Shown: in pieces, positions 36,867 to 49,405 of the stretch
How the letters are laid out: every line of letters starts with the position of its first letter
How positions within the stretch are numbered: the first letter of the stretch is position 1
Source: a virus
Strand: one strand, 5' to 3'
Length of the DNA: 54,960 nt
IMG/VR virus record: IMGVR_UViG_3300046028_005371
Location: 1-54,960 of that record
Notes under the pieces: model-generated
Databases searched by the model: none
The model's input: only the letters and a program-made list of their open reading frames with translations
Told to the model about the DNA's origin: nothing
Position numbers and translations under genes: made by a program

Positions 36867-37895
36867 TTAATCACCACCCTTTAATAAAAATTTATTTGAA
36901 ATTGCCTTGAACGAACATTGCATGGCCTTGCTTTTAAACACAAGACCTTCACGTTCACAGCCAATCATTCCCATAACTGATTTGCCTTCTGCAAATTTCA
37001 GAATATTGTCAATGCTGTTGATGCCTAAAGTATCCCACAATTCGGCACCAAATGCTAGCACAGGCACATGTTTGATATCGTGTTCTTCAACAAATGCATT
37101 ACGTTCAGTAGGAGTTAGATATTTGCCAGTATCAATATCGTAGATATCAAACAAGAAAAATTCCTGTCCTTTTTGCTTGTATGGATTACCTTGGATACCT
37201 TCTCCAATCAACTCACCCTGTAGTGCAAGATTACGATTGGCACGACGAAGCTTCAACTCCAAATCATTGCGTACTGCAACCTTCCATAGGCTGTTGGTTT
37301 CGCTGGGCTTGAGTTCAAGATTACGGCTACACACACCAAACTCGCCGTCACGTAGGTACACAGTCATTGAGCTGCCATCCAGCTTTTCAGTGACTTCCCA
37401 TACATGTTGTTCTCTAAGCCAGTAGTCAAATTCTTCTTTCAAGTTTTGAACACGTTCTTGGTCAGTCTTTTGGATCCAACCTGGGAACATGCCTTTGACT
37501 TCTCCTGCCAACTGTGCAGGGACGGGAGCTTCGTATTTCACAATGCCTAGTGGAAATGATACATCGAGTCCTTCAAACAACTCTGATTCTACCATAGTCA
37601 ATGTAGACAACGGCAACAACAGTCCCTGGCTCAATTGCCCACGTAGTTTCATTGTACGCAGTCGTTCACCAGCAATGCCGTCAAACACTCGAGGCTCCTT
37701 GCCCTTGCTCAAGAATGGGGCCAGTGCGTGAGGAATCCAAGAATCGATTTCGCAATACACAGCAAGATCGCCTTGTTTGAATTCGCCCTTTTTAACTACA
37801 GCAGTCCATCCACCGATGACTGCACATTCGATAGCATCGGCATCCGGGATAGGACGCAGAGCATCAATCTTCCTAATGGTTGCTAATTTACGCAT
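36867..37895 (-). CDS. RNA ligase, DraRnl/Rnl5-like
   Basis: 342 residues. An N-terminal OB-fold-like region (about 1-110, starting MRKLATIRKIDALRPIPDAD) precedes the nucleotidyltransferase motif TEKLDGSS with Lys171 as the AMP-accepting residue, followed by LQGELIGEGIQGNPY (motif III/IIIa region) and EGLVFKSK (motif IV/V). That order, OB domain first, is characteristic of the Deinococcus Rnl5 type. Seals nicked RNA; with the kinase and phosphatases it makes a tRNA-repair set against anticodon nucleases. Confidence 0.9.
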   Translation of the reverse strand: MRKLATIRKIDALRPIPDADAIECAVIGGWTAVVKKGEFKQGDLAVYCEIDSWIPHALAPFLSKGKEPRVFDGIAGERLRTMKLRGQLSQGLLLPLSTLTMVESELFEGLDVSFPLGIVKYEAPVPAQLAGEVKGMFPGWIQKTDQERVQNLKEEFDYWLREQHVWEVTEKLDGSSMTVYLRDGEFGVCSRNLELKPSETNSLWKVAVRNDLELKLRRANRNLALQGELIGEGIQGNPYKQKGQEFFLFDIYDIDTGKYLTPTERNAFVEEHDIKHVPVLAFGAELWDTLGINSIDNILKFAEGKSVMGMIGCEREGLVFKSKAMQCSFKAISNKFLLKGGD

Positions 37896-40243: not shown

Positions 40244-40597
40244 ATACTTTATTGAAACATACTACACCAGCTGGGAGTCTCGAATTTTGCGAGCCATACA
40301 AGATGCAATCTGTTTCAATAAAGTGTCTAGCTACCTACACCACATAGGCCCTAAACTGAGCTGTTACTCTGTCCATAACATTTATTCTTTTGGAAAGGTG
40401 TTATACCTCACCTAATGCGTTCCCGCCACTCCACCACAGAGTACGGATGGTCATTGCACTACAAACCTAGCACTCTCTATGGTGACTGCCCCACCCCCGT
40501 TTATTACGTGTACGGGATCACGGGTTTTCAACAGGTTAATACTAGTTTAGTGACCTAGCAGTCGCCATATTTTTGATAGCTGTAATTAACCTAAAAC
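40244..40597 (-). ncRNA. Gene-free structured spacer, candidate ncRNA
   Basis: 354 nt with no credible reading frame, between tRNA-Gly and tRNA-Thr. Pairings seen: perfect 14-bp stem 40246-40259 with 40311-40324; 8-bp stem 40365-40372 with 40436-40443 enclosing ATAACA/TGTTAT; 11-bp stem 40479-40489 with 40558-40568 (one G:T); 8-bp stem 40533-40540 with 40585-40592. The last two are interleaved, as in a pseudoknot. It would be transcribed with the tRNAs on the minus strand. Confidence 0.5.
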
Positions 40598-41410: not shown

Positions 41411-41632
41411 AAATAAAATGTTAGGTGTGCTATTACGCTAAAAGGGAATTAATCCTTACCAGTTACGGGGTGACCTTTTACTTCCTAGACTATATCTAGG
41501 CCCTACTCCTTAGAGGATGGACGCTTTTAATCCCACCTTCCTAACCATATAAAAACACACTCTTAAACTCTTCTTCAGCTTCTAGTCGCTATCTCCCTTA
41601 CTAATCGGGCGTTGAGTAAGTGTGTTTATATA
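41411..41632 (-). other. Structured tRNA spacer, two modules
   Basis: 222 nt without a reading frame. Module 1 (about 41420-41545) is closed by GTTAGG/CCTAAC and contains the perfect hairpin CCTAGA-CTATA-TCTAGG (41484-41500). Module 2 (41546-41634) is closed by a 14-nt stem that runs into the CCA end of tRNA-Leu(TAA). Confidence 0.45.
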
Positions 41633-42611: not shown

Positions 42612-42668
42612 AGGATCAACTTTGATTTCATTTACAGTGAAAGTTTTTAAGTTTGCTGAACTGATCCT
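42612..42668 (-). repeat. Three-copy covarying hairpin, copy A
   Basis: 57 nt. Outer stem AGGATCA/TGATCCT, inner hairpin TTTCA/TGAAA. Lies just after the CCA of tRNA-Leu(CAA). Copies B and C are at 43842-43897 and 43988-44042. Confidence 0.65.
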
Positions 42669-42675
42669 AAAACTT

Positions 42676-42752
42676 TGGTACCCCGTGTCTGATTCGAACA
42701 GACATCCAACAGATTTTGAATCTATCCGCACTACCAATTAGCGTAACGGGGC
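42676..42752 (-). tRNA. tRNA with Leu anticodon CAA on a class I body
   Basis: 77 nt with CCA. Acceptor GCCCCGT/ACGGGGT, anticodon stem ATAGA/TCTGT, loop TTCAAAA, short variable loop, third member of the shared-body set. Confidence 0.82.
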
Positions 42753-42757
42753 ATATA

Positions 42758-42810
42758 TGGTGGTGGACTTCTGGGCCCATGGAACCCATCACCTCGCGAG
42801 TACGTCCACC
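42758..42810 (-). ncRNA. 53-nt tRNA-like minigene
   Basis: Perfect 7-bp acceptor GGTGGAC/GTCCACC followed by A and encoded CCA, exactly as in the flanking tRNAs, but only 35 nt between the acceptor strands. CTCGCGAG forms a D-arm-sized hairpin and TGGG...CCCA a T-arm-sized one; there is no anticodon arm. Confidence 0.6.
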
Positions 42811-42816
42811 GTAACT

Positions 42817-42892
42817 TGGTACCAACTTGAGGGATCGAACCTCATTCCACGGTGCTTCAAACCGTTGCTATGACCACATCAGCTAAGTTGGC
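42817..42892 (-). tRNA. tRNA-Phe(GAA)
   Basis: 76 nt with CCA. Acceptor GCCAACT/AGTTGGT, anticodon stem ACGGT/ACCGT, loop TTGAAGC. Confidence 0.92.
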
Positions 42893-42898
42893 AAATTT

Positions 42899-42972
42899 TG
42901 GGTTGAACCGGGGAATCGAACCCTCTCTAACTGTTTCACAGACAGTTGTGCGACCACTACACTAGGAACAAC
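42899..42972 (-). tRNA. tRNA-His(GTG)
   Basis: 74 nt with CCA and an encoded G-1 facing C73, the histidine identity pair. Anticodon stem ACTGT/ACAGT, loop CTGTGAA. Two mismatches in the acceptor and a weak T stem. Confidence 0.85.
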
Positions 42973-42978
42973 ATTGAA

Positions 42979-43055
42979 TGGTGCAACCGGAGAGATTCGA
43001 ACTCCCGACACCTGACTTCGTAGGCCAGTGCTCTATCCAACTGAGCTACGGTCGC
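42979..43055 (-). tRNA. tRNA-Arg(ACG)
   Basis: 77 nt with CCA. Anticodon stem CTGGC/GTCAG, loop CTACGAA; canonical D arm (TAGCTCAGTTGGATAGAGCA). Confidence 0.92.
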
Positions 43056-43061
43056 ATTATT

Positions 43062-43137
43062 TGGCAGGGGAGATGAGATTCGAACTCATGATGACGATTT
43101 CAAAGACCGTTGCCTTAGGCCACTAGGCGACACCCCA
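43062..43137 (-). tRNA. tRNA-Gln(TTG)
   Basis: 76 nt with CCA and discriminator G. Starts with T1 as bacterial tRNA-Gln does; anticodon stem ACGGT/ATCGT, loop CTTTGAA. Confidence 0.88.
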
Positions 43138-43168
43138 ACAATTGAATTTGTAAGTAGTTCCCCCATCG

Positions 43169-43333
43169 TTATAGGAACCATTCACCCGTGTAATAAATCC
43201 GGACGGGATTCGGTAAGTCACTTGGGATACTAGTCCAGTTTGTCTCCGTTACAGACACCACCCTTCCGAGTGGTTGGGAGTTGAACCCATCACCTTCTAC
43301 TGCTTCGGTCCTTCGAAGAAACCTAGACAGCAT
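43169..43333 (-). CDS. Possible small protein in the tRNA array
   Basis: 54 residues (MLSRFLRRTEAVEGDGFNSQ..., ending IYYTGEWFL) in an otherwise gene-free 225-nt gap. Only a weak AAGAGA ribosome site. The same DNA can fold into several stems, so it may instead be a structured spacer. Confidence 0.35.
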   Translation of the reverse strand: MLSRFLRRTEAVEGDGFNSQPLGRVVSVTETNWTSIPSDLPNPVRIYYTGEWFL

Positions 43334-43362
43334 GACATTCTCTTGCTGACACTTACAAAACT

Positions 43363-43438
43363 TGGTAGTAACGGTGGGACTCGAACCCACGATCGACACC
43401 GTATGAAGGTGGTGCATTAGCCACTATGCTACGTTACC
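43363..43438 (-). tRNA. tRNA-Met(CAT)
   Basis: 76 nt with CCA. Acceptor GGTAACG/CGTTACT, loop TTCATAC. Elongator Met or lysidine-modified Ile2; the sequence alone does not decide. Confidence 0.85.
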
Positions 43439-43521
43439 ATAGAAAAACACACTCAAGTCCGCGGCACGGAAGGCACTATACCCGCGATGGTCTATGACCA
43501 GGCCTAATGTGTTTATCTATG
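43438..43521 (-). repeat. AACACACTC stem element, copy 2
   Basis: Arms CATAGAAAAACACA (43438-43451) and TGTGTTTATCTATG (43508-43521) close an 84-nt spacer; the right arm overlaps the CCA of tRNA-Lys(TTT) and the left arm touches the 5' base of tRNA-Met. Confidence 0.55.
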
Positions 43522-43595
43522 GTAGGACCGCTGGGACTCGAACCCAGAATTGGCAGATTAAAAGTCTGCTGTGATAACCATTTCACTACGATCCC
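43520..43595 (-). tRNA. tRNA-Lys(TTT)
   Basis: 76 nt with CCA. Anticodon stem GCAGA/TCTGC, loop CTTTTAA. Confidence 0.92.
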
Positions 43596-43732
43596 ATGTA
43601 TGGTCCACAGCGTCAGATTCGAACTGACACCTCATCGGTTAAGAGCCGAGTACGCTACCGTTAAACGCCAGCTGTGGATAGTTACGTATTAAATTTTCTT
43701 TTACGTGCCTATCCAAGACCATACATGGGATC
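43590..43732. repeat. 16-bp inverted repeat enclosing tRNA-Lys(CTT)
   Basis: Perfect arms GATCCCATGTATGGTC (43590-43605) and its complement (43717-43732). The left arm covers the CCA end of tRNA-Lys(CTT), the 5-nt gap and the first bases of tRNA-Lys(TTT). A second stem GGATAG/CTATCC (43675-43680, 43709-43714) lies inside. Confidence 0.7.
43601..43677 (-). tRNA. tRNA-Lys(CTT)
   Basis: 77 nt with CCA. Acceptor CCACAGC/GCTGTGG perfect, anticodon stem CTCGG/CCGAT, loop CTCTTAA. Confidence 0.85.
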
Positions 43733-43797
43733 TTAGAAGACACTAAAGTTTAGCAGAGCTTCGCTTCATTGTGTTACCTCTTTGTGTTTAAGTTAGT

Positions 43798-43826
43798 ATT
43801 ATACAACCTTTTGCAGTAGTTGTCAA
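43798..43826 (-). promoter_or_regulatory. Sigma70 promoter in tRNA array
   Basis: Minus strand: TTGACA (43821-43826), 17-bp spacer, TATAAT (43798-43803). Transcribes towards tRNA-Lys(CTT) after a leader of about 120 nt that contains the right arm of the 16-bp inverted repeat. Confidence 0.85.
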
Positions 43827-43841
43827 CTGTTTTTGTTTAAC

Positions 43842-43897
43842 AGGATTCGCTTTTTTTCATTTACAGTGAAAGTTTTTAAATTTGCTGAAAGAATCCT
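43842..43897 (-). repeat. Three-copy covarying hairpin, copy B
   Basis: 56 nt. Outer stem AGGATTC/GAATCCT, inner hairpin TTTCA/TGAAA. Just after the CCA of tRNA-Glu at 43903. Confidence 0.65.
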
Positions 43898-43902
43898 AAA
43901 CT

Positions 43903-43977
43903 TGGTACTGTCGACGGGTATCGATCCCGCTTCTCCACCTTGAAAGGGTAGCGTCCTAGCCACTAGACGACGACAGT
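43903..43977 (-). tRNA. tRNA-Glu(TTC), second copy
   Basis: 75 nt with CCA. Perfect acceptor ACTGTCG/CGACAGT, anticodon stem CTACC/GGTGG, loop CTTTCAA. T loop reads ATCGATA, so T54 is replaced by A. Confidence 0.85.
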
Positions 43978-43987
43978 GTAATAAAAC

Positions 43988-44042
43988 AGGATGCTTATTT
44001 TTCAATTAAAAGTTGAATTTTATAAGTTGCTGAACGCATCCT
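43988..44042 (-). repeat. Three-copy covarying hairpin, copy C
   Basis: 55 nt. Outer stem AGGATGC/GCATCCT, inner hairpin TTCAA/TTGAA. Just after the CCA of tRNA-Ile at 44048. Confidence 0.65.
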
Positions 44043-44047
44043 AAACT

Positions 44048-44122
44048 TGGTAGCCACGGACAATTTTGAAATGTCGACTTATCGCTTATCAAGCGATTAC
44101 TCTGCCTCTGAGTTACGCGGCT
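44048..44122 (-). tRNA. tRNA-Ile(GAT)
   Basis: 75 nt with CCA. Acceptor AGCCGCG/CGTGGCT, anticodon stem ATCGC/GCGAT, loop TTGATAA. Its 5' 10 nt overlap the end of the HNH gene. Confidence 0.88.
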
Positions 44123-44568
44123 AATTTTCTATTTCTGCCACGCCATGTTGGTGTTTGTGCGTGACAGTTTGGACAAAGACACTCTAAATTAGATCTGTCA
44201 TTGTTTTTGTTGTTTCCATCGATATGGTCTAATTCTAAGCTAAGAGATTCTCCTAACCAATCAGTTAGACCACACTTGTTACATTTATGATCTTGCTCAA
44301 TTAACACTTTCTTACGACGGCCATCGTGGCCTAGTAATTTAGTGTCCGAAGATAGTAATCGTTGTTTAGCAGTAGCAGATCTACCGTTAGACCCTTTTAG
44401 CGACCGCTGTTTTAATTTTTCTTTGCCAAAGGAAGAAAATACTTCCTTTAATTGTTTTGATCTTTCTTCTTTTTGTATATCTGTCCATGTTCTACTATTA
44501 GCACATGTTCTACTACAAAAAATTCCAGGCTTAGTGTGTGCTGTGTTGCACTTAGGGCATAGTTTCAT
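44113..44568 (-). CDS. HNH endonuclease (probable free-standing homing endonuclease)
   Basis: 151 residues. N-terminal CPKCNTAHTKPGIFCSRTC is a zinc-ribbon-like pair of CxxC motifs; the C-terminal KCNKCGL, LELDHIDGNNKNNDRSNLE and CLCPNCHAQT form the HNH (beta-beta-alpha metal) nuclease. Enzymes of this sort nick or cut specific sites and spread into new alleles. The gene is wedged between tRNA-Ile (10-bp overlap) and a tRNA 5'-half remnant, as expected for an insertion into the array. Confidence 0.9.
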   Translation of the reverse strand: MKLCPKCNTAHTKPGIFCSRTCANSRTWTDIQKEERSKQLKEVFSSFGKEKLKQRSLKGSNGRSATAKQRLLSSDTKLLGHDGRRKKVLIEQDHKCNKCGLTDWLGESLSLELDHIDGNNKNNDRSNLECLCPNCHAQTPTWRGRNRKLAA

Positions 44569-45316: not shown

Positions 45317-45408
45317 TGGCGGAAAGCAGAGGAGTCGAACCCCATCCCCGTTAAGAGAACCTGGTTTTCAAGGCCAGTCGCAGGACCATCCCCGCTGCAT
45401 TACTTTCC
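45317..45408 (-). tRNA. tRNA-Ser(TGA)
   Basis: 92 nt, class II, with CCA. Acceptor GGAAAGT/GCTTTCC, loop CTTGAAA, long variable arm, discriminator G. Confidence 0.9.
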
Positions 45409-45658: not shown

Positions 45659-45746
45659 TGGTGTAGCGTGATGGAATCGAACCACTTGACTGCCACCCTG
45701 CTTAATAAGTCTACCGGGTTACAGCCGGCAACAGGGAACACACTAC
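45659..45746 (-). tRNA. Atypical tRNA, possibly tRNA-Tyr(GTA) without a D arm
   Basis: 88 nt with CCA. Acceptor GTAGTGT/ACGCTAC and T loop TTCGATT are clear. The best anticodon hairpin is GCCGG-CTGTAAC-CCGGT (GTA), with a class II arm closed by GACT/AGTC, but only 10 nt remain for the D arm. An alternative 8-bp pairing CTGTTGCC/GGTGGCAG competes. Confidence 0.5.
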
Positions 45747-45751
45747 ATATT

Positions 45752-45835: not shown

Positions 45836-46083
45836 AATTTGTTAACACACTCACGACCGGTAATTACCAATCCATAAGCAAACTATGTTCACTTATAAAG
45901 AATGTGTGTATTAAAATGTTCTAGACTATATCCGTTCCGGCGCTTTCAAGGCGCTATGAAAACATTTTAATACGCTGTAATTTTTCACACTAGAAGAAGT
46001 GCTTCATCCTACAGGCCGCCCATTTGCCCATGTTTTAAGTGCGGGCTAGGATCTCGTTTCCTATAACACTTTGCGGTCTACAA
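45836..46083 (-). other. Structured spacer upstream of tRNA-Tyr
   Basis: 248 nt without a reading frame. Holds a perfect 13-bp inverted repeat (45908-45920 with 45961-45973, GTATTAAAATGTT), which encloses an anticodon-arm-like hairpin GCGC-CTTGAAA-GCGC, and an ACACAC/GTGTGT stem (45845-45850 with 45904-45909) next to an ACACACTC motif. Confidence 0.4.
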
Positions 46084-46702: not shown

Positions 46703-46900
46703 CTCAACAAATGTCCTACCCTTGAGGTCTAAGTCTAGCGGCTTCTTGAATCGTTGCACCACCTTTGAGCCTGCCGGCACATAAGCAATAGCCCTGGCAC
46801 TCCGGCCCACGGGCTTCTCTTTAAATATGTAGACATGGTTGGCCCCACCGTTTTCCCACTCGGTGGTCTCCTGCATAATTTTAATCAATTTGGATGTCAT
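46691..46900 (-). CDS. Hypothetical small protein
   Basis: 69 residues: WENGGANHVYIFKEKPVGRS, then AIAYVPAGSKVVQRFKKPLD and a C-terminal FVELTD. Small beta-rich protein of unknown function. The -35 box of the tRNA-Arg promoter lies within its last codons. The start overlaps the upstream gene by 20 nt. Confidence 0.6.
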   Translation of the reverse strand: MTSKLIKIMQETTEWENGGANHVYIFKEKPVGRSARAIAYVPAGSKVVQRFKKPLDLDLKGRTFVELTD

Positions 46901-47066
46901 GGATACGTCCTTGTTTAAAAATGTAGTAAAGATTCATAAAACTATAATAGACCCAGATGCAGTCGTTGCCTTGAGTCATTGTATAGTGTGTAATCCCTTT
47001 CTTAGACATATCCTCTTCAACAAGGATGACTTCGAGTGGGTTAAGTGCTGGATGTATATTAATCAT
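46881..47066 (-). CDS. Hypothetical small protein, near-leaderless
   Basis: 61 residues from the ATG at 47066 (MINIHPALNPLEVILVEEDM). A frame to 47096 would begin inside the promoter and is rejected. The ATG is 9 nt after a perfect TATAAT box, leaving a leader of about 3 nt and no Shine-Dalgarno sequence. No family recognised. Confidence 0.6.
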   Translation of the reverse strand: MINIHPALNPLEVILVEEDMSKKGITHYTMTQGNDCIWVYYSFMNLYYIFKQGRIHDIQID

Positions 47067-47075
47067 GTTGTATAT

Positions 47076-47104
47076 ATTATAGCACGGTTTTACCACTTTG
47101 TCAA
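47076..47104 (-). promoter_or_regulatory. Sigma70 promoter
   Basis: Minus strand: TTGACA (47099-47104), 17-bp spacer, TATAAT (47076-47081). Near-identical in spacer and flanks to the promoter at 38535-38563. Confidence 0.88.
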
Positions 47105-47115
47105 CCTCTTTTAGC

Positions 47116-47131
47116 GTTGTATTTTTACAAC
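47116..47131. repeat. Palindromic hairpin GTTGTATTTTTACAAC, copy 2
   Basis: Identical to 46571-46586; lies 13 nt after the stop of the kinase-like gene and just before the next promoter. Confidence 0.45.
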
Positions 47132-47143
47132 TTATTTAAAGTT

Positions 47144-47704
47144 TTATAACAGTGATTCTAGTTTAAAAATTAACTCAGGGTCAATCTTACTGATCCATTC
47201 TTTTATACTATGTCTTTCTAAGTTAATATTTTGTGCATTCCTAGTAACTGCATATTTAAAATCAAAACACATAAGTTGACCGTTTTTTCCAGTCAAATTA
47301 CACATAGCATTATTTAATTTATACATATTATGCTGTTTAAAAAATTTAAACATATGTTCTATTTGTTCTGTTATATTAGGAAAGACAATATTTAAATCAT
47401 TGCGGGGATATTGTAATAAGTCCGGCCCCGGCCACTCTTGCAAAATATAATATCCAAATTGATCGTCTAATTTGCCATGTTCATATGTTTTTACTAATAG
47501 ATCCGATTTTAATTTTGTAGACCAATATATTTCATTTTTATAAAGTTTGTTAATTTCTTCTATGGTATTATGCACTGGTGGACGATTTTGAATAGTATTG
47601 CCGTTAATTTTATAGTATTTTTTAACCAATTTTTCATCTTTGTCTATCCATACTTCGGCTAAACTTCCTCTAGATCCATTAACTGAATAATATCGTTCAA
47701 ACAT
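47144..47704 (-). CDS. Protein-kinase-fold-like protein (possibly pseudokinase)
   Basis: 186 residues from the ATG at 47704, which overlaps the upstream stop by 8 nt. KLVKKYYKING resembles the beta3 lysine strand, NEIYWSTKLKSDLLVKTYEH the alphaC and beta4 region, YYILQEWPGPDLLQ the hinge, and NAMCNLTGKNGQLMCFDFKY the catalytic loop and DFG segment (here DFK; the HRD Asp is missing). That suggests an aminoglycoside-kinase-like fold that may be inactive or altered. Last gene of the second cassette. Confidence 0.55.
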   Translation of the reverse strand: MFERYYSVNGSRGSLAEVWIDKDEKLVKKYYKINGNTIQNRPPVHNTIEEINKLYKNEIYWSTKLKSDLLVKTYEHGKLDDQFGYYILQEWPGPDLLQYPRNDLNIVFPNITEQIEHMFKFFKQHNMYKLNNAMCNLTGKNGQLMCFDFKYAVTRNAQNINLERHSIKEWISKIDPELIFKLESLL

Positions 47705-48434
47705 ATAAATTATCAATAATCTCTGTGTAATAAGTTTCTAAAATATCTGTCACGTATGATATTTTATCTGCATTGAAATCTTCATTGAGTTGGGTGGATA
47801 GCCAAGACAATATTGCTGCTGTGTCTTTGTTTGATAATAATGTATAAAAATCAAAATATTCTGTAACAGGTTTGTTGTTAAATTTCTTCAATGAATAGTT
47901 CCAAAATATATCAGTCAATGGATAACATATTTTACACCTAGTACTTTGATATAAATTTGCTATTTCTGTCTTTGGAATTAGTGAAATACATCGAATGTTA
48001 TATCCAAGATCCTGCATTTCTTTAAAAGGAATAGCTTTATCCCAAGAATGAATTCCGTATAATATTCTATAATTTTTCATTTCATATTTAGAATTTTCGT
48101 AAAATTTTAATTTGGTATCCCCCCAATTCCACTGTTGTTGGCCGGCCAATAAATGTGTTCCTAAAAATTCAAAAAATTGAACATAGTCATTTATACCAGT
48201 GGGTTCACAACGGTCTAAAAACCAATTAGTAATTCTTTTTGGTACAATTATTTCATATGCTATCTCTCTAGAAGATTTATGAGAATTAATAGGAATATCA
48301 GATAAAATTTTAGTATTGGTATAATCTAATTTAATATCCAACTCTGACCAAATACGCATTAGAAGTTGACCGGATCCGCCGGGTAAATAGTCGAACAATA
48401 TTAATTCATTATTTGTTAAAAATGGGTATTTCAT
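47697..48434 (-). CDS. Unknown protein with P-loop-like N terminus
   Basis: 245 residues. ELILFDYLPGGSGQLLMRIW near the N terminus looks like a strand followed by a glycine-rich phosphate-binding loop, as in sulfotransferase-like or kinase-like folds. The rest (NYRILYGIHSWDKAIPFKEM, CISLIPKTEIANLYQSTRCK) gives no further hint. Joined by a 4-nt ATGA overlap to the radical SAM gene upstream. Confidence 0.5.
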   Translation of the reverse strand: MKYPFLTNNELILFDYLPGGSGQLLMRIWSELDIKLDYTNTKILSDIPINSHKSSREIAYEIIVPKRITNWFLDRCEPTGINDYVQFFEFLGTHLLAGQQQWNWGDTKLKFYENSKYEMKNYRILYGIHSWDKAIPFKEMQDLGYNIRCISLIPKTEIANLYQSTRCKICYPLTDIFWNYSLKKFNNKPVTEYFDFYTLLSNKDTAAILSWLSTQLNEDFNADKISYVTDILETYYTEIIDNLYV

Positions 48435-49405
48435 TGTTTTGTTTTAGTGGTTAACAGATCATGAAAACACCCACATGTAACCTTATTACAAATAACTGCG
48501 TTATTAGAAAAATTATACTTAAGATCGTCAACATGTCCAATTGGGCCAGTGACTCCACATACTGATCTGTTAATAGTCTGGAAGTTAATGTCCAAGAAAT
48601 CTTTTCCTACCTGACATTCCCATCCTAAAAATTTATTCCATTTATTTTTCATAAGTTGTTGAACGTTAATATTTTTTGTAATTCCTAAATTATTAGTTAC
48701 TAATAATTCAGCACCTAACCGTAACTTATTTGGAATAGGAGATTTTTTTTTAATATTTGTTAGTATTCCAGGTTTATAACTAGCGTGTTTAATAATAGAT
48801 AGTTCTTCCTCTGAGTATAGGTCATAGATATCATATTCGTCAATATTCATTCCTTTAATATCAATTATTCCACCAGTGTTGTTTATTAAATAATTAAATG
48901 CGTTAATTGCTTGAGGAATATTATCTTTAGTATGTGTAACTTCACATACTGTTTCAGTTTCAAAATTAAGAAATAAATTCATTATATCAGCAATATTATT
49001 ATAATCAACCGTTTGTTCAGCATGATATGTTAATGCTAGACGAGTTAATATATTATCAATTTTGGCCAATTCTTTCCACCAGCGCATTGTTCTAGAACCG
49101 TTACTTGCTAATATATTCCAAGCACCTTTATTTTTTGAATGCTGCAATAACTCTATTAAATCAGGATATAATGTAGGTTCACCTCCAGTATAAACAATAT
49201 AAAAAGGAGTTCCTACACATGCCTCAGCAATTTTATCAACAATTGATTTGTACTTTTCTAATGTAAACCACCGTTCATTTCCACTATTATTTTCTTTACC
49301 ACAAAAACTACACGAGTAATTGCATACATTATGTAGTTTCCAGTTAATTACTTTAAATGGTTGAGGGACTGATCTTTTAACGTGAATTGGATATACATTA
49401 TTCAT
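48431..49405 (-). CDS. Radical SAM protein, SPASM-like C terminus
   Basis: 324 residues from the ATG at 49405, whose ATGA overlaps the PLP gene stop; the frame to 49429 has no better support. VCNYSCSFC (C28, C32, C35) binds the SAM cluster, and YTGGEPTLYPDLIELL is the SAM-binding GGEP region. The C-terminal third has several Cys (WECQVG, RSVCGV, VICNKVTCGC) that could hold auxiliary clusters. Such enzymes modify peptides or small molecules. Substrate unknown. Confidence 0.88.
   Translation of the reverse strand: MNNVYPIHVKRSVPQPFKVINWKLHNVCNYSCSFCGKENNSGNERWFTLEKYKSIVDKIAEACVGTPFYIVYTGGEPTLYPDLIELLQHSKNKGAWNILASNGSRTMRWWKELAKIDNILTRLALTYHAEQTVDYNNIADIMNLFLNFETETVCEVTHTKDNIPQAINAFNYLINNTGGIIDIKGMNIDEYDIYDLYSEEELSIIKHASYKPGILTNIKKKSPIPNKLRLGAELLVTNNLGITKNINVQQLMKNKWNKFLGWECQVGKDFLDINFQTINRSVCGVTGPIGHVDDLKYNFSNNAVICNKVTCGCFHDLLTTKTKQ

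Follow-up and report, generated by a model that had tools for sequence, protein, structure and literature searches.

Hairpin elements in a viral tRNA array

The stretch of DNA analysed here, hereafter called the window, is an IMG/VR virus record of 54,960 bases (IMGVR_UViG_3300046028_005371), i.e., a 55-kb fragment. It carries an array of tRNA genes, which lies entirely on the minus strand according to ARAGORN, and, between these genes, small hairpin elements that belong to a viral RNA family and that are, in all likelihood, associated with a Ro60-like phage protein. A sequence-only reading of the window had described three copies with outer stems, inner stems and a common TTCAGCAA, and all of these were located in the window as described. 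Since the tRNA array is on the minus strand, the letters given in that reading must be reverse-complemented to obtain the element RNAs. Its placement of the copies just behind tRNA 3' ends also held, on the minus strand: the elements start at 42668, 43897 and 44042 and the tRNAs end at 42676, 43903 and 44048, which leaves a spacing of 5–7 nt. None of the elements is reported as a tRNA by ARAGORN. A covariance model made from relatives, called R1, recovers elements 1–3 from the window (E 2e-11 to 5e-10), together with a fourth, altered copy.

42612–42668, minus strand: element 1, 57 nt; stem AGGATCA/TGATCCT, TTCAGCAA, loop CTGTAAA (tRNA-Tyr GUA type); 7 nt behind tRNA-Leu(caa); R1 54.4 bits, E 4.5e-10
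42626–42642, minus strand: apical hairpin of element 1, TTTCA-CTGTAAA-TGAAA (from the sequence)
42653–42660, minus strand: conserved TTCAGCAA of element 1
43842–43897, minus strand: element 2, 56 nt; stem AGGATTC/GAATCCT, loop CTGTAAA (Tyr GUA type); 5 nt behind tRNA-Glu(ttc); R1 60.1 bits, E 2.3e-11
43855–43871, minus strand: apical hairpin of element 2, TTTCA-CTGTAAA-TGAAA (from the sequence)
43988–44042, minus strand: element 3, 55 nt; stem AGGATGC/GCATCCT, loop CTTTTAA (Lys UUU type); 5 nt behind tRNA-Ile(gat); R1 57.5 bits, E 8.7e-11
44001–44017, minus strand: apical hairpin of element 3, TTCAA-CTTTTAA-TTGAA (from the sequence)
40533–40592, minus strand: element 4, absent from the sequence-only reading; stem AGGTTAA/TTAACCT, with the motif changed to TTACAGCTA and a dissimilar inner part; 5 nt behind tRNA-Thr(tgt); R1 29.5 bits, E 2.4e-4 (R1 match 40529–40595)
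36867–37895, minus strand: RNA ligase, an RNA repair gene of the same virus; phrog_968, E 4e-90

The RNA is laid out on the minus strand as AGGAUNN, N, UUCAGCAA, ~10 nt, a hairpin, ~7 nt and NNAUCCU, followed by GUU. The core consists of a 7-bp end-joining stem (AG...CU-G), UUCAGCAA adjoining the 5' strand of this stem, and an apical hairpin of 5 bp with a 7-nt loop. As RNA, the loops in the window read CUGUAAA twice (Tyr) and CUUUUAA once (Lys).

A structured RNA family with an anticodon-like arm

A lack of further homologues and an equal stability of shuffled sequences had been named beforehand as observations that would speak against a structured RNA. The second of these was indeed made: singly, elements 1–3 fold no better than shuffles (z -0.56, -1.13, and -1.83). 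Folding of single sequences was therefore dropped as a proof of structure, and the case rests on comparison. Homologues, on the other hand, are many in viral contigs. The pattern AGGATNNN-TTCAGCAA-N15-40-ATCCT, in which five stem pairs and TTCAGCAA are fixed, occurs in at least 120 stretches of viral contigs, and among the matches listed both unconstrained stem pairs form in 126 of the 141 element rows, one of them in 10 and none in 5. When AG..CTGTT and TTCAGCAA were fixed, all five free stem positions paired in 128 of 141 distinct sequences, as compared with 3 after permutation of the letters. In 239 viral loci, which had been fetched by patterns favouring such stems, a 7-bp stem was present at 242 of 530 TTCAGCAA sites versus 5 of 65 sites of the reversed motif. 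For the counts, 191 distinct elements were kept from 242 rows; one count of 100% pairing resulted from the selection of elements for a full stem and was not used as evidence. Thus, paired positions covary, and the comparative evidence is overwhelming that the RNA structure is under selection, as had been proposed. As the family is real even though its single members are no more stable than shuffles, the latter comparison is too weak an argument for such A/U-rich RNAs.

Bacterial chromosomes were rejected as the home of the family. The matches listed from a bacterial genome collection were mostly chance-like, and the only clear case among them was a contig of a metagenome-assembled genome, L280, with five R1 matches. 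In the phylum group searched, R1 was found in 1 of 118 genomes, i.e., in the one containing L280, with 45 candidates scored per genome. PF11443, a domain of the phage protein discussed below, was found in 0 of 247 genomes of this group, in a search in which the profile matched nothing anywhere.

The apical hairpin copies the anticodon arm of a tRNA, with C32-U33-NNN-A37-A38 in the loop. Among 188 distinct inner regions, 114 contain a 5-bp stem with a 7-nt loop, as compared with a mean of 15.4 and a maximum of 27 in shuffles, and other loop lengths come nowhere near this number. After exclusion of the 6 of these 114 that contain more than one hairpin, the loops of the 108 single-hairpin cases showed U33 in 100, A37 in 87, A38 in 82, and C32 in 70 cases and a variable middle triplet. 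Moreover, 67 of 121 loops from viral contigs are identical to a real tRNA anticodon loop, as judged against 233 distinct loops from 3,274 tRNAs in the scanned loci; shuffled inner regions gave 0.41 (maximum 3) and permutation within the loop 5.2 (maximum 14). The loops matched most often are those of Lys UUU, Thr UGU, Arg UCU, Asn GUU, Tyr GUA, and Ser GGA. In a second set, taken from the surroundings of the ro genes introduced below, 24 of 53 loops match anticodon loops (controls 0.34 and 2.0). With the loop fixed as CUNNNAA and the stem left free, in elements with a single CUNNNAA, five pairs form in 19 of 36 cases (2.7 when the arms were re-dealt, maximum 8), and in 17 of 41 cases in the second set (1.4, maximum 6). 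The anticodon triplet differs between the copies of one phage while the core stays fixed. We are confident that the apical hairpin is a mimic of the anticodon arm.

The same core also encloses larger inserts, of 55–170 nt, in 196 distinct cases. Permuted motifs gave a mean of 3.6, the maximum of 120 being that of the overlapping ACAGCA. A T-arm motif is present in 117 of these 196 larger siblings, and 82 are without a recognised T arm. The T-D order, which is also that of YrlA, occurs in 48 siblings; 19 have D-anticodon-T, 18 have D-T, and 16 have anticodon-T-D. Unconstrained folding of three D-anticodon-T siblings produced the end stem and three tRNA arms, and that of a permuted sibling produced an anticodon arm, a T arm, a closed 7-bp acceptor-like hairpin, and a D arm (z -2.5 to -4.0 in four folded examples). 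Compared with these siblings, some of which hold a whole cloverleaf, the elements in the window are the minimal members, i.e., the smallest, anticodon-arm-only form of a modular family of tRNA-mimicking, Y-like RNAs. A separate observation concerns a phage contig in which a tmRNA match (L085, 2405–2801, minus strand; beta_tmRNA 105.8 bits, permuted tmRNA 119.1 bits) lies beside small Ro RNAs.

Linkage to a Ro60-like phage protein

Ro60 and Y RNAs were discovered decades ago, and no generally agreed purpose is known for them. One element, used as a BLAST query against isolated phages, matched mycobacteriophages directly downstream of a gene annotated as "Ro-like RNA binding protein." At this locus, three RNAs lie in a row, each with the stem and ACAGCAA, and the middle one is a sub-threshold YrlA. 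Relatives of the mycobacteriophage Ro-like protein are found in 680 of 50,697 phage records. The phage protein consists of PF11443 (DUF2828) and PF25043 (DUF7788) in 9 of 9 cases and belongs to phrog_850, "RNA-binding protein," in 58 of 58. The predicted structure of one such protein has a predicted local distance difference test score (pLDDT) of 89.6 and a predicted template modelling score (pTM) of 0.88, and all 12 of its PDB matches at E <=0.001 are Ro60, Rsr or TROVE proteins. In a profile comparison with bacterial TROVE proteins, only the vWA half aligned (probability 92, E 5e-7), and a PDB sequence search with the phage DUF2828 protein gave no match. The TROVE Pfam model did not match in 25 element-bearing records, and the search for a TROVE-type partner was abandoned when the mycobacteriophage gene led to DUF2828.

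One to three such RNAs lie near the ro gene in phage loci from Staphylococcus, Campylobacter, Listeria, Salmonella (Felix O1-like), Bacillus, and Enterococcus. Of nine ro loci from isolated phages, all outside the training set of R1, seven gave R1 matches. When 80 viral loci were fetched by the Ro protein alone, 71 of them contained together 177 elements with the stem and CAGCAA; 161 of these were on the strand of ro, and 99 of that strand lay within 500 bp. Fifty-nine permuted motifs gave a mean of 25.1 in these loci, with a maximum of 122 for ACAGCA, which overlaps the real motif. A same-strand element followed by G was present in 61 of the 80 ro loci, in 52 within 500 bp. Of the 177 ro-locus rows, 141 (plus strand, next base G) were retained for counting. 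Co-occurrence was also assessed in 44 records, i.e., the window, 25 records matching the element pattern (3 of them R1-negative), and 18 records chosen for RNA ligase, the latter two groups being picked by size. In this sample, R1 match and Ro gene were both present in 22 records, the element only in 3, the Ro gene only in 0, and neither in 19 (Fisher 2.2e-9). We consider it highly probable that the elements are Ro-associated RNAs.

Some further observations were made at ro loci. In two records, the Ro gene is divided over two open frames ~1 kb apart, as if an intron or homing element had been inserted (G003, ~46811–49227; G005, ~114281–116805). A gene annotated as tRNA splicing ligase is located near the Listeria ro gene. 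In Listeria phage CKA15, a third element of 112 nt is found upstream of ro (L570, 1787–1898, minus strand), with a strong internal hairpin (z -3.3) and no clear tRNA module.

The tRNA array of the window contains other features on the minus strand as well. A second hairpin-closed set between the tRNAs (41543–41632, 43436–43523, and 45843–45912) has ends that read, by eye, AACACAC(T)...(A)GTGTGTT; its motif is unrelated to Ro RNAs, and one of its members is inverted repeat I2. Sub-threshold tRNA-Sec-like Rfam matches at 45321–45408 and 45662–45747 (34.9 and 25.9 bits) are probably tRNAs that ARAGORN missed. An open reading frame of 151 codons at 44113–44568 might, as a guess by eye, encode an HNH endonuclease.

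Possible roles and relation to known systems

The family, its structure, the tRNA mimicry, and the linkage to a Ro-fold protein are computed results, from which we infer physical binding, processing, and decoy action. The best overall explanation, and probably the correct one, is that the elements serve a phage Ro60 ribonucleoprotein as its small, Y-RNA-like RNAs, in which a docking part is combined with an effector made of tRNA pieces for use as decoy or adaptor. The end-joining stem and CAGCAA would form the docking module, which the Ro protein of the phage (DUF2828/DUF7788, phrog_850) would recognise. The effector module above this core would consist of swappable tRNA pieces: in the window the anticodon arm only (two of Tyr type and one of Lys type), and elsewhere T and D arms permuted like in YrlA, or all three arms with the Ro stem replacing the acceptor stem. 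The RNAs would be co-transcribed within the tRNA array and probably released by tRNA-processing nucleases. During infection, the Ro particle may then present tRNA look-alikes to enzymes acting on tRNA, above all anticodon nucleases of host defence, and these look-alikes could either compete as decoys or act as adaptors through which cut tRNAs are repaired or degraded.

Such a role as decoy or adaptor against tRNA-cutting enzymes is put forward tentatively; among the alternatives known to us, it fits best with an anticodon arm exposed on Ro. A paper on jumbo phages emphasises that host defences often cleave anticodon loops; RNA ligases are the phages' response, and some phages employ a ROT/TROVE protein (PMC7824862). 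An RNA ligase is encoded in the window as well. The tRNA-like domain of Salmonella YrlA was proposed, untested, to be a competitive inhibitor of anticodon nuclease, as stated in an excerpt of PMC7790460. A wider proposal, which we regard as doubtful, is that phages of very different bacteria use a Ro60 particle with interchangeable tRNA fragments as a shield against anticodon-loop cutters. Several anticodons would be kept, so that the set records which tRNAs are attacked, and the same architecture may persist in social amoebae as Class I RNA.

Several observations weigh against the interpretation as Ro-bound mimics of the anticodon arm. A "motif-free" control also gave full stems in 64 of 122 cases; it is not a clean control, because it probably picks up siblings with altered motifs. 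The 5-bp/7-nt hairpin is absent from 74 of the 188 inner regions, and element 4 differs as well; thus, anticodon mimicry is not universal, and other module types exist. R1 found no match in 2 of the 9 isolated ro loci (Vibrio ValKK3 and Cronobacter GAP32). The window, a 55-kb fragment, contains no Ro gene, and neither do two further R1-positive records of 114 and 108 kb. The YrlA model RF02553 gives no match at the elements of the window. The most transcribed region of phage CKA15 (26,236–26,727, in the accessible part of PMC12282133) was considered as the site of its elements and ruled out by the coordinates; these elements sit just upstream of the ro gene. Finally, data on binding, expression or nucleases were not found for the family in the literature searched.

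A realistic alternative, though somewhat less likely than not, is that the RNAs act in RNA quality control, as gates and tethers for phage Ro. They would control the entry of misfolded or broken RNA into the Ro cavity, and the tRNA-like module would not be a decoy but recruit a tRNA-binding partner, such as an exonuclease, a modification enzyme or a ligase. Bacterial Y RNA is known to act in this way together with Rsr and PNPase, according to PMC7790460 and PMC12282133, and the RNA ligase in the window and the annotated tRNA splicing ligase near Listeria ro would fit with it. However, it does not by itself explain the variation of the anticodon triplet among copies with a fixed core in one phage.

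It is very unlikely that the elements are direct relatives of the Class I RNA of Dictyostelium, that they work by way of a different protein (e.g., the RRM protein Rnp1A) and that their linkage to Ro is secondary. With Class I RNAs, as described in PMC7919456, the elements share a length of ~56–60 nt, an end stem, a motif ending in CAGCAA at the 5' strand, AG...CUGU ends, and a variable interior. The Class I model RF01414 aligns over its full length to element 2 (34.4 bits, E 0.0015) and element 3 (29.3 bits, E 0.03). However, all scores are under the Rfam cut-off of 41.5, that of element 1 being 16.4 bits, and in eight loci of Ro-encoding phages RF01414 had no match at E <=0.5.

The sequence-only reading had linked the copies to tRNA 3' processing, and a cis-acting spacer that directs this processing or protects tRNA precursors would fit with the position of 108 of the 215 copies of the AGG set, which begin 5–11 nt behind a same-strand tRNA end, and with the finding of an antisense tRNA within 100 nt in 0 of these 215. 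This role is highly improbable, since 59 of the 215 copies are without a same-strand tRNA within 100 nt, the RNAs gather at ro in Ro-encoding phages, and neither the co-occurrence with Ro nor the anticodon-like loop would be explained. Thus, a structured RNA family behind tRNAs is what remains of the earlier interpretation, in which the copied anticodon arm and the Ro60-like partner had been overlooked. That the elements are armless mini-tRNAs active in translation is hardly conceivable, even though they have a 7-bp end stem, a 5-bp/7-nt arm with U33 and A37 in most arm-bearing copies, and a place in a tRNA array, because CCA directly follows the stem in 0 of the 215 copies, the next bases being mostly GUU, and because the whole stem-CAGCAA core is retained in RNAs that already hold D, anticodon, and T arms.

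As probable Y-like RNAs of a phage Ro particle, the elements resemble YrlA (RF02553) in the end-joining stem, in family members outside the window also in a Ro protein encoded alongside, and, in the larger siblings, in a tRNA-mimicking effector with permuted T and D arms. Two larger siblings score below the cut-off of 69 for RF02553 (Kingsolomon L370, 37.9 bits; L016, 48.9 bits). The RNAs of the window differ from YrlA in that they are half its size, carry the CAGCAA motif and, in elements 1–3, lack a T-arm/D-arm module, having an anticodon-like arm only; furthermore, the phage partner is a DUF2828-type Ro and not a TROVE-type Rsr. Like Ro60 and Rsr, the phage DUF2828 protein has, in the predicted structure, the Ro60 fold with a helical part and a vWA domain (best PDB matches 9kop, 2i91, 1yvr, 1yvp, 2nvo, and 9l5y), whereas it differs from them by an identity of 12–17% in these structural matches and by its assignment to phrog_850 and PF11443 plus PF25043. 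With phage tRNAs, the elements share transcription units and possibly also the purpose of resisting tRNA loss, but they lack CCA and are not called by ARAGORN.

Y RNAs in mycobacteriophages have already been reported, and Y RNAs are suspected by the authors near the Ro-like protein of Listeria phage CKA15, according to the accessible part of PMC12282133. There, this protein, CKA15_055, is described as present in purified virions with 57% coverage; hence, a Ro particle may arrive together with the DNA. A published link between the element family and DUF2828 or Ro was not found in a literature search in which the four papers mentioning DUF2828 were all, by title, on plants and which did not reach key primary papers on Y RNA. 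As far as the literature was searched, the following are new: a core shared by phage Ro RNAs, members reduced to the anticodon arm, a variety of tRNA modules in both permuted and unpermuted arrangements, and the likeness to Class I RNA. The elements represent a very common phage version of the system, in which the RNAs are modular tRNA mimics with variable anticodons, and they are candidate partner RNAs for a large protein family annotated only as DUF2828. Since the family occurs in phages that are easy to work with (Felix O1-like, Listeria P100-like, mycobacteriophage cluster L, and Staphylococcus 6ec), the purpose of tRNA mimicry is directly testable.

Class I RNA, to which Rnp1A binds, is considered to be confined to dictyostelids (PMC7919456). 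Its DUSE promoter ~60 nt upstream and its binding by Rnp1A are eukaryotic traits, which are not expected in a phage tRNA array, and the phage elements differ further in scoring below the Rfam cut-off, in being carried by phages, and in the apical anticodon-like arm. Of the Class I motif positions, C6, C9, A10, and A11 are present in the phage set, and the T3 position is variable. A common origin or a common Ro partnership with Class I RNA is unlikely in our estimation; if it existed, the elements would be the bacterial-virus counterpart of a class of non-coding RNA thought to be unique to social amoebae.

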